From a virus, in IMG/VR virus record IMGVR_UViG_3300030104_005726, positions 1 to 21,541 of that record: a stretch of 21,541 nucleotides of DNA; one strand, given 5' to 3'. Position numbers and translations under genes: made by a program. The notes below the pieces were generated by a model, which worked only from the letters and a program-made list of their open reading frames with translations, had not been told where the DNA came from and searched no databases. This document shows, in pieces, positions 9,359 to 11,991 of the stretch (positions are counted from its first letter, which is position 1; each line of letters opens with the position of its first letter).

Positions 9359-9646
9359 ATGACTAATAGAGCTAAAGCAGTGCATCTTGCAAAAGAACAC
9401 TTAAAATGCAATAAACCTAAAAAAACACCTAGTCATAAGACAAAATCTCATGTTGTAAAGGCTTGTAAGGATGGTGAAGAAAAATTAATAAGATTTGGTC
9501 AACAGGGGGTTAAGGGTGCAGGAAAGAATCCACAGTCTGCAAAAGATAAAGCAAGAAAGAAATCTTATTATGCTAGACACAATGCTCAAGATTCCAAGCC
9601 TAGTAAAATGTCTGCTCGATATTGGTCACATAAAGTTAAATGGTAA
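9359..9646 (+). CDS. Small basic phage protein (RFGQxGVxGAG ... KxxYYARH type)
   Basis: This 95-residue, very Lys-rich protein contains KACKDGEEKLIRFGQQGVKG, then a helix (SAKDKARKKSYYARHNAQD), and ends with KMSARYWSHKVKW. This signature recurs in many phage genomes; I believe it carries a DUF label (possibly DUF6321), but the label is from memory. Strong positive charge and conserved Tyr/Arg/His suggest nucleic-acid or capsid-DNA contact. The gene ends one base before the stop of the converging oxygenase gene at 9647, so there is no room for a terminator between them. Confidence 0.8.
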   Translation: MTNRAKAVHLAKEHLKCNKPKKTPSHKTKSHVVKACKDGEEKLIRFGQQGVKGAGKNPQSAKDKARKKSYYARHNAQDSKPSKMSARYWSHKVKW

Positions 9647-10453
9647 TTAAATTAAAGACCAGCTACGCCACCATTTAGTTATTACATATTTATCACCTTT
9701 TATTGGTGGTAAGGCTTCATGCATAGTTTTGTAATTTGGTTTGCCATCTCTATATAAATTATTCCACGCTAAAAGTAATCCAGGTTCTGGTTTAACTTTT
9801 AAATTTAGATGTTTAAAATAAGTTTCTCCTCCTTCTTTGACATGATTTAAGTACATCATAGTGGTCCAAGTTCGTTGTCCCATCCATTCGCAATAGACTT
9901 TATGTTGTTTTTTATCACTTGGTGGGAAAAAATCCCAATGTTCTTTGTAATATTCACCAGGTTTATATTTTTGTGCTTGCATCGCCTCTCCAATAAAAGG
10001 ATCTAGCTCTGTTAGATCTTCTAATTTATTATCTATATCAAGAATTAATTCTGTTGGAAAGAAGTGTAGATCTGCAGTTTCACTAGTTCTATAATCCGAT
10101 GTAATTGCTTCATCTTTATCATTTGCTAGTGTGGATTTTCTAGTAGATTTATTTATACATTCAATTAATTCTTTACATTCATAATCTGTTAAAAAATTTC
10201 TATGAAAGTATATTTGTGTAAAAGGGTATGGTATTTTTTCTGTTTTATATATTAATGGATTGTTGTAGAAGTATTCATAGTTAATTGATTTTGGTGCTGA
10301 TTTAAAATTACAGAGTATAAGTAAAGCCTTTATTTCATTATCACTTAAGTTATAAGCCTCTTTATAAGACCTTAAAATTTGTTCTTTTGTTACTCCACAT
10401 AATGCAGTTCTAGTAAAATTTTCTGCTATTTTAGTTAATTCATCTATATGCAT
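9647..10453 (-). CDS. 2OG-Fe(II) oxygenase, prolyl 4-hydroxylase-like
   Basis: This 268-residue protein has the full set of P4H residues in its C-terminal half: iron ligands H172-x-D174 (YYKEHWDFF) and H245 (TMHEALPP), and the 2-oxoglutarate Lys K255 (KYVITKWW), ten residues after H245. Conserved QRTWTTMMYLN and GGETYFKHL lie between them. It should use Fe(II), O2 and 2-oxoglutarate to hydroxylate a protein or peptide, probably on proline; the target is unknown. The N-terminal ~85 residues are a helical extension. ATG 10453 was preferred over TTG 10501, whose extra 16 residues (MIYSYTYILYEY...) look non-coding and which lacks a ribosome site. It is a single minus gene between two plus clusters. 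Such oxygenases are common in marine T4-like cyanophages. Confidence 0.92.
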   Translation of the reverse strand: MHIDELTKIAENFTRTALCGVTKEQILRSYKEAYNLSDNEIKALLILCNFKSAPKSINYEYFYNNPLIYKTEKIPYPFTQIYFHRNFLTDYECKELIECINKSTRKSTLANDKDEAITSDYRTSETADLHFFPTELILDIDNKLEDLTELDPFIGEAMQAQKYKPGEYYKEHWDFFPPSDKKQHKVYCEWMGQRTWTTMMYLNHVKEGGETYFKHLNLKVKPEPGLLLAWNNLYRDGKPNYKTMHEALPPIKGDKYVITKWWRSWSLI

Positions 10454-10502
10454 TTGTAAGTTTGAGTACTCGTACAATATATAAGTGTAACTATAGATCA
10501 AA

Positions 10503-10643
10503 TTGGAGCTGATTGCCCTAAATTTTATAGTATTATTTGGTGGGAGCTATGGGATTAGTACGCTTCTACTTAAACGTAGTGAAAAGAAGATTGTAAGTAG
10601 GCGTTCTAGACGAGGAATTGCAGTGTCAGTTCAGCGCTGGTAA
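10503..10643 (+). CDS. Possible small membrane protein, TTG start
   Basis: The stretch between the oxygenase gene and the NblA-like gene contains an open frame of 46 residues: LELIALNFIVLFGGSYGIST, then LLLKRSEKKIVSRRSRRG and IAVSVQRW. It has one hydrophobic helix (residues ~2-23) followed by a strongly basic tail, as in small inner-membrane proteins with the tail in the cytoplasm. The start is uncertain: TTG 10503 is the first plausible one and has no obvious ribosome site. If it is not coding, this 165-bp gap is empty apart from promoters. It would be divergent from the oxygenase. Confidence 0.4.
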   Translation: MELIALNFIVLFGGSYGISTLLLKRSEKKIVSRRSRRGIAVSVQRW

Positions 10644-10668
10644 TATATTGATAAGGTTCTAACTTTTT

Positions 10669-10884
10669 ATGGATGCATTAGAGCTTCCGGTTGATGTCGA
10701 ATTTTCAATTCATGCAGCTTCCCTTGCGATTCAAAATCTTGATCGTGTGGATCTAGAGGAGGCATTTATTGAGATGCTTCATCAAAAGGCTTTAGATAAG
10801 CAAATGTTTTTCAACATCATGAAGGACCACGGCATTGATGCCGATATTAAATTCAACATTTCCACCGTAGGACAGATCTCTTAA
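10669..10884 (+). CDS. NblA-like small protein (putative phycobilisome degradation adaptor)
   Basis: The 71-residue sequence follows the NblA plan. It has LPVDVEFSIHAASLAIQNL (helix 1; NblA has L-x-x-E-x-x-F-x-I/L-x-x-F-x-x-Q-V-x-N-x), then DLEEAFIEMLHQKALDKQM (helix 2; NblA E-Q-A-x-x-x-L-x-x-L-Y-x-Q-x-M-x-x-x), then FFNIMKDHGI (NblA y-x-x-L-L-K-x-x-W/H-G-I). NblA dimers of two-helix hairpins bind phycobilisomes and the Clp chaperone so that the antenna is degraded. Phage NblA has been reported in freshwater cyanophages and more recently in marine ones. The gene starts 25 bp after the small upstream frame and 5 bp precede the next gene. The fit is by eye, and some NblA aromatic positions differ, so a paralogous use remains possible. 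Confidence 0.55.
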   Translation: MDALELPVDVEFSIHAASLAIQNLDRVDLEEAFIEMLHQKALDKQMFFNIMKDHGIDADIKFNISTVGQIS

Positions 10885-10889
10885 GTACC

Positions 10890-11273
10890 ATGGCTACTCG
10901 CACAATTGAAGGCACTCTAGACACACAAAGCGTTGATACTGGTTCTGAGATTACCTATCTCGGTTCTACAGCTGCTAATAACCCTGGGGAGGCTGTAAGA
11001 GGCTTTCGTGTTAACCCAGGAGGTACAGGAGATATCAAGGTAACAATTGATCGTAGTAGTTCTATCAACACTATGGAGATCTTCCAAGAGGATTCCTACA
11101 CAGCAGGATCTGCTCCAGCTGGTTATTCAAAATTTGCAAATATTGGTAGAGATGGAAAGGGTAAAGGAGTTGTAGGTGTAACCGTAACTAATGCTGCCAA
11201 AAATTATATTGTTCTTTTGAGATTAGACGGTTATTCTAGTGTTAGTTACAGCGGTAACGTTGTCGTCCCATAA
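10890..11273 (+). CDS. Putative virion beta-sandwich protein
   Basis: This 127-residue protein has ATG five bases after the previous stop. Its composition is rich in Gly, Thr, Ser and Val with no Cys or His, and strands alternate regularly (MATRTIEGTLDTQSVDTGSE, FRVNPGGTGDIKVTIDR, GVVGVTVTNAAKNYIVLL, SSVSYSGNVVVP). It looks like a compact beta-sandwich of the head-decoration or fibre-tip type. No exact family recognised. The last codons overlap the start region of the lysozyme-like gene. Confidence 0.7.
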   Translation: MATRTIEGTLDTQSVDTGSEITYLGSTAANNPGEAVRGFRVNPGGTGDIKVTIDRSSSINTMEIFQEDSYTAGSAPAGYSKFANIGRDGKGKGVVGVTVTNAAKNYIVLLRLDGYSSVSYSGNVVVP

Positions 11274-11991
11274 GAATCAGAAATTACGTACTAGGTGGAA
11301 GGAACATCCTTTTTTAACTAGAAAAGGAATAAATTTAATAAGAACTCACTCAATGCCTCGTACCAATATTGGTATGGGGCGTTATGCGTCTTATAAGGAG
11401 TATGGAGAGGATATATGGCGTATTGGGTATGGAAGTAAGAAGTTAGGGAAAAGATGGTTGTCGTCTACGGATAAGGCTACTGAGGAAGAAATAGATTTAC
11501 AGTTAGAAGAAGACTTGAAAGAATTTTCCGATTTAGTAGCTAACTATATTTTTGTTCCTTTAAATACTAATCGAAAGGCTGCTTTATTAAGCTTTGCATA
11601 TAGCATTGGAATATGTTCTTTTAAAACTTGTCGTTTATTAGAATTAATAAATTCTTCCGCTGGTAAAACTAAAATTATCCGAGAATGGAGTCCTTATATC
11701 AATCAAATTTGGTTGTCTGGGGGTGATCTAATGAGAGATAGACGTCGTGTTGAATTGGATACTTATTATTCTGCAGATAAAGAGATTCCCACGTTAGTTC
11801 CTCATCGTTGTCGGGTAAAGAGATGTTTATTGAATCTCCCTGAAACTTATACTGGGGTTCCCAATCAGTTGAAAGCAATTGAATATCTTGAGAAAAAATT
11901 GGCTGAGTGGGACCCATCTGGAGAGGTTCTTCGCCAGTTCTTTCGTTATTGGACTCAGAAGCCCACTGGTCTAGGATCTCCGCCGCCTTAG
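11260..11991 (+). CDS. T4-lysozyme-like (GH24 fold) protein lacking catalytic residues
   Basis: The fold signature is clear: LTRKGINLIRTHS (helix 1), IWRIGYGSK (the TIGYGH turn), ATEEEIDLQLEEDLKEF, then VPLNTNRKAALLSFAYSIG (matches vpLnq-q-aLvSfayNiG), and GGDLMRDRRRVELDTYY (GLxxRRxxExxLy). The active-site Glu expected at the end of helix 1 is absent: no acidic residue occurs between the first helix and YKEYGED, and the TIGYGH Thr is Arg. So it is unlikely to cut peptidoglycan like T4 lysozyme. An extra C-terminal ~70 residues (LKAIEYLEKKLAEWD ...) follow. The start is TTG 11260 (MSSHKNQKL) or GTG 11239; both overlap the previous gene. Its 3' 293 bp overlap the gene on the other strand. Confidence 0.75.
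   Translation: MSSHKNQKLRTRWKEHPFLTRKGINLIRTHSMPRTNIGMGRYASYKEYGEDIWRIGYGSKKLGKRWLSSTDKATEEEIDLQLEEDLKEFSDLVANYIFVPLNTNRKAALLSFAYSIGICSFKTCRLLELINSSAGKTKIIREWSPYINQIWLSGGDLMRDRRRVELDTYYSADKEIPTLVPHRCRVKRCLLNLPETYTGVPNQLKAIEYLEKKLAEWDPSGEVLRQFFRYWTQKPTGLGSPPP

Follow-up and report, generated by a model that had tools for sequence, protein, structure and literature searches.

The locus studied here raises the question of whether a short open reading frame of a virus encodes an NblA-type adaptor, and on which proteins such an adaptor would act. The ORF (10669..10884, plus strand; 71 codons) lies in the window, the whole stretch of 21,541 nucleotides that was analysed (positions 1 to 21,541 of the IMG/VR record IMGVR_UViG_3300030104_005726). 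Cyanobacteria employ NblA to deliver their light-harvesting antenna for degradation. The N-terminal region of NblA binds ClpC and its C-terminal region binds phycobiliproteins (cited in PMC4103541), and NblA proteins of phages, once expressed in cyanobacteria, degrade phycobilisomes (reviewed in PMC9602691). Certain cyanophages of fresh and marine waters are already known to carry NblA, but for the S-EIV1 group, in which we place the window phage, no NblA is listed in a 2017 photosynthesis-gene survey (PMC5332604).

A conserved gene in a fixed neighbourhood

The 71-residue ORF, whose coordinates and sequence agree with those of the first-pass annotation, starts with ATG, and the initial methionine is invariant in 27 aligned relatives, which indicates a conserved start codon. 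Stretches encoding confirmed relatives numbered 154 in one scan of IMG/VR and 226 in a second, and those retained encode proteins 70-100% identical to the window protein on contigs of up to 88 kb. The median dN/dS of 0.075 (maximum 0.26; 821 pairs, 70 distinct coding sequences) reveals purifying selection. The ORF is a real gene. When 50,697 phage records were searched by tblastn with the window protein and with one of its divergent relatives, no cultured relative was returned, a result that does not prove absence.

A 127-aa ORF with no assigned function (10890..11273, plus strand), present in 106 of 107 family loci, begins 5 bp after the end of the NblA-like gene and is followed by a phage lysozyme gene (11239..11991, plus strand; PF00959, E 7.6e-15). 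The order NblA-like gene, 127-aa ORF, lysozyme is fixed, with lysozyme downstream in all 94 loci that have enough downstream sequence. A 2OG-Fe(II) oxygenase gene (9647-10501, minus strand) lies upstream and is found in 84 of the 107 loci. Conservation is higher in the NblA-like protein than in its downstream neighbours, for instance 85% versus 62-63% in QQUU01000116.1. This contig bears the full phage cassette (NblA-like gene, lysozyme, and 2OG oxygenase); its binning as a Bacteroidetes MAG is probably an error, the contig being that of a cyanophage.

Distant homology to NblA

The first-pass annotation had proposed PF04485 as the test of a relationship to NblA, and neither the window protein nor its record gives a match to this family. 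The gathering score of 25 bits is not reached by any tested member, the best result among 27 being an E-value of 0.12, and we therefore name the protein NblA-like rather than file it as a member of PF04485. More generally, Pfam and PHROG searches with the 71-aa protein found no family above the cut-off; matches of its family to DUF3231 (E 0.043) and to FF domains (E 0.079) fell below it and were dropped.

In the PDB, NblA ranks first with the single window protein as query (3cs5, E 0.0083), and a profile of 27 relatives finds 3cs5 at an E-value of 0.0011. We also used a 47-sequence profile, made from the phage family and relatives of the S-EIV1 protein and containing no NblA. Its sole significant matches among 177,635 PDB sequences are the two NblA sequences, 1ojh (E 4.6e-5) and 3cs5 (E 5.2e-5), the next match being at 1.1.

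Aligned by hhalign with 11 NblA sequences, the family gives a probability of 93% and an E-value of 3.4e-7 over 57 columns, or 95.8% and 6.7e-9 with the S-EIV1 relatives added; these E-values are computed for a single pair from shallow alignments, and more weight should be given to the shuffles. The profile-profile scores against NblA range from 37.7 to about 47, and 300 column shuffles give at most 21.3 against the real 37.7, while 200 shuffles of the combined alignment give at most 17.3 against the real 46.5.

The NblA-like pattern noticed in the first-pass annotation also exceeds chance in the reverse comparison. Scored on an 11-sequence NblA profile, the 27 relatives all lie at 17.0-24.7 bits, compared to 13.1 for the best of 20,000 shuffles. 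Applied to 11,901 ORFs of the family loci, the same profile gives the best unrelated ORF 10.6 and family members at least 15.5, and only true NblA proteins are not outscored by the family. Single-sequence tblastn with the Anabaena and T. vulcanus NblA against phages gave nothing useful; such a search is too weak for proteins this short, given that Ma-LMM01 is present in the collection and is found by PF04485. The PDB profile searches, hhalign, and the shuffles all uphold the likeness to NblA as distant homology, and we conclude from these sequence comparisons that the window protein is very probably a divergent NblA homologue.

Predicted structure and signature residues

AlphaFold2, run with the 47-sequence alignment, predicts a short helix (residues 8-21) followed by a long one (26-53), i.e. 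a helix-loop-helix, in agreement with the two-helix protein first described. The mean pLDDT is 76, rising to 85-87 for residues 11-50, with an overall pTM of 0.45. In a Foldseek search of the family models against the PDB, NblA was not among the matches, the model being a short hairpin of low pTM; neither Foldseek against viral models nor VIA-align produced an informative match. The first-pass annotation had held that the lack of a PF04485 score together with a fold other than a hairpin would speak against NblA; the former was found, whereas the predicted fold is a hairpin.

Cyanobacterial NblA (PF04485; 1ojh from Anabaena sp. PCC 7120, 3cs5 from Thermosynechococcus vulcanus) can be aligned with the window protein over about 50-57 residues, NblA residue n corresponding to residue n-1 of the phage protein. 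In this register, L7, F13, I15, and K53 of NblA are kept, as L6, F12, I14, and K52, and L51 becomes I/V50. L51 and K53 are the C-terminal residues with which NblA binds phycobiliproteins. In the alignment, the lysine is found in 36 of 36 family sequences, and the L51 position is occupied by Ile or Val. The candidate N-terminal ClpC-binding motif keeps L6, D9, F12, and I14.

The differences are equally clear. The identity of the 71-aa protein to NblA is 17-19%. The invariant or nearly invariant Gln residues of NblA and W56 are replaced (V10, E11, A20, and H54 in the window protein), V10 and E11 being the two Gln positions of the candidate ClpC-binding motif. The family also has a conserved C-terminal tail of about 14 residues, starting at about residue 58 and reading roughly DADIKFNISTVGQIS, which is absent from NblA.

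Relationship to S-EIV1 and other phage NblA proteins

The window phage and S-EIV1 have in common a large primase (34% over 859 aa), an HNH protein, a phrog_7595-type protein, and several others. The S-EIV1 protein AHV82245.1 (KJ410740, 73902-74222), annotated as hypothetical, is matched by the family profile (E 6.6e-5) and, independently, by PF04485, which is its sole Pfam match (E 5.9e-4 within the record, 0.014 over all of Pfam). On the evidence of these common proteins and of AHV82245.1, we place the window phage in the S-EIV1 lineage, a relationship which replaces a T4-like reading based on DUF6322. A psbA gene cut by the contig end (38779-39126) and a weak hli-type match (24319-24402), both in the record outside the window, together with the S-EIV1-type proteins identify the virus as a cyanophage. 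A search of 12 related records for CpeT was negative. The phrog_7595 gene (window 9410-9647) has 70% DNA identity to a gene of Puniceispirillum phage HMO-2011, which has an unrelated host.

AHV82245.1 belongs to the same family by profile, adjoins lysozyme, and has a tail whose pattern in the S-EIV1 relatives is similar, but not identical, to that of the window family. It differs in its length of 106 aa and its acidic C-terminus, and the S-EIV1 relatives, which share 23-26% identity, have Ala, Glu, or Gln where NblA has K53. The gene order also differs, the NblA-like gene directly following lysozyme in S-EIV1 and preceding it in the window.

The NblA of Microcystis phage Ma-LMM01 (also found in PaV-LD and MaMV-DC) is likewise a phage-borne protein of this type, but it scores 52 bits on PF04485, above the cut-off, and its phage group and gene neighbourhood are different. 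The picocyanobacterial "NblA" of S-SCSM1 (QFG06501.1, 54 aa) is a small marine cyanophage protein named via HHpred (PMC9602691). It is not matched by the window-family profile and aligns with a second small ORF of the record (82 aa; 31393-31641), outside the window. This second ORF is also carried by the related record G004 and by S-EIV1, and its homologues in records G005 and G006 give weak PF04485 matches below the cut-off. With an hhalign probability of 11%, it is not established as a true NblA.

Host

The first-pass annotation had taken NblA as a mark of a Synechococcus rather than a Prochlorococcus host. This claim is not supported. Prochlorococcus has no nblA orthologues and uses chlorophyll-binding proteins in place of phycobilisomes (PMC7439483), but S-SCSM1, a phage that encodes NblA, infects strains of Synechococcus and of Prochlorococcus alike (PMC9602691). 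Moreover, the psbA of the record is closest to that of Prochlorococcus phages at both the DNA and protein levels, so that NblA cannot decide the host. The nearest D1 proteins are those of P-RSM6 (89%) and P-SSM2/P-SSM5 (87.6%) over 145 aa, 34 of the 512 matching records being named Prochlorococcus, and the psbA of G005 is likewise nearest to Prochlorococcus phages. A tree of the 115-codon psbA fragment puts the window phage in one group with its own relatives and with P-TIM40 and S-RIM12; the host genera do not separate in it. S-EIV1, the only cultured relative, infects Synechococcus.

The GC content of the family loci is bimodal, with one group at 34-40%, including the window at 37%, and another at 41-50%. 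Among the records checked, which are fragments, psbA and hli-type matches were seen only in those of low GC.

Proposed function

We favor as the best explanation that the protein is a divergent phage-borne NblA homologue of the S-EIV1 lineage, probably acting as an adaptor like NblA, and it seems fairly likely that this action concerns phycobilisomes or phycobiliproteins via ClpC. The small helix-loop-helix protein, probably a dimer, would dock on the host ClpC chaperone through its N-terminal helix region (L6, D9, F12, I14) and hold phycobiliproteins at the C-terminal end of helix 2 (I/V50, L/M51, K52). ClpCP would then degrade the phycobiliproteins delivered. The phage would likely gain amino acids for the synthesis of its own proteins, and photosystem II would be less over-excited. 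What the data show is the profile-level homology, the helix-loop-helix as a prediction, the purifying selection, the constant neighbourhood, and the conservation of the upstream element; the dimerization, the binding of ClpC and of phycobiliproteins, their degradation, and the timing of expression are what we infer. The failure to reach the PF04485 cut-off, the lack of NblA among the Foldseek matches, the loss of the Gln residues and W56, the low identity to NblA, the Ala, Glu, or Gln at the K53 position of the S-EIV1 relatives, and the lean of psbA toward Prochlorococcus count against this adaptor reading.

An adaptor derived from NblA could also have been retargeted, still recruiting ClpC but delivering a cargo other than phycobilisomes, such as residual phycoerythrin or another protein of a Prochlorococcus host. 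The tail that NblA does not have and the strong purifying selection on the gene would be consistent with this possibility, which we nevertheless consider rather unlikely, as the residue at the phycobiliprotein-binding lysine is invariant in the family. The D1 of the record, the psbA of G005, and the place of the window in the low-GC group point in the direction of such a host, but psbA moves between phages, the short-fragment tree leaves the genera mixed, and the sole cultured relative infects Synechococcus. A more specific proposal, which we regard as quite unlikely, is that widespread phages of the S-EIV1 lineage that are low in GC and have a Prochlorococcus-like psbA infect phycobilisome-free hosts, where the tailed NblA homologue would be a retargeted Clp adaptor sending another host protein to ClpCP, and where the second NblA-like ORF might provide a heterodimer partner.

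The location of the gene in a module with lysozyme means that a late structural or lysis role would also fit. The protein would then be an accessory of morphogenesis or lysis, working with the 127-aa protein and lysozyme, and its helical hairpin would resemble NblA by convergence. The fixed gene order, with lysozyme downstream at every locus long enough to show it, and the adjacency to lysozyme in S-EIV1 agree with such a role. We judge it improbable, given that the profile similarity is specific, NblA alone being significant in the PDB, and exceeds both the shuffled and the natural controls. A chance ORF or a chance resemblance, which the lack of a Pfam or PHROG family might suggest, is extremely improbable and is refuted by the shuffles, the natural-ORF control, and the dN/dS, in addition to the hundreds of relatives with conserved start and context.

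Phage NblA itself is already known; what is new is the lineage, the abundance of the family, its escape from standard annotation, the conserved tail, the upstream element described below, and the tension with psbA. Standard Pfam annotation misses this family, and if its NblA-like function is true, the remodeling of host antennae is commoner among uncultured cyanophages than annotation indicates. The role of an NblA homologue in a phycobilisome-free host would become a sharper question should Prochlorococcus prove to be the host of the low-GC members.

A conserved element upstream of the gene

The conservation among relatives reveals a promoter-like element, TTG-N8-GTTCAGCGCTGGTAATATA (10618..10647, plus strand), upstream of the NblA-like gene. 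Its spacer contains the palindrome CAGCGCTG. A strict promoter consensus scan did not list the element, an Rfam search with it gave nothing, and a profile search found no second copy in the window or in the rest of the record. The core is of the extended -10 type (TGG TAATAT, hexamer at 10641-10646), with a weak -35-like TTG at 10618, and an extended -10 promoter would be the simplest reading of the element. Of the 80 relatives with the strict pattern, 78 have the start of the TAATAT hexamer 28 nt ahead of the ATG and two have it 29 nt ahead; a further 28 relatives have variant cores, apparently in the same place.
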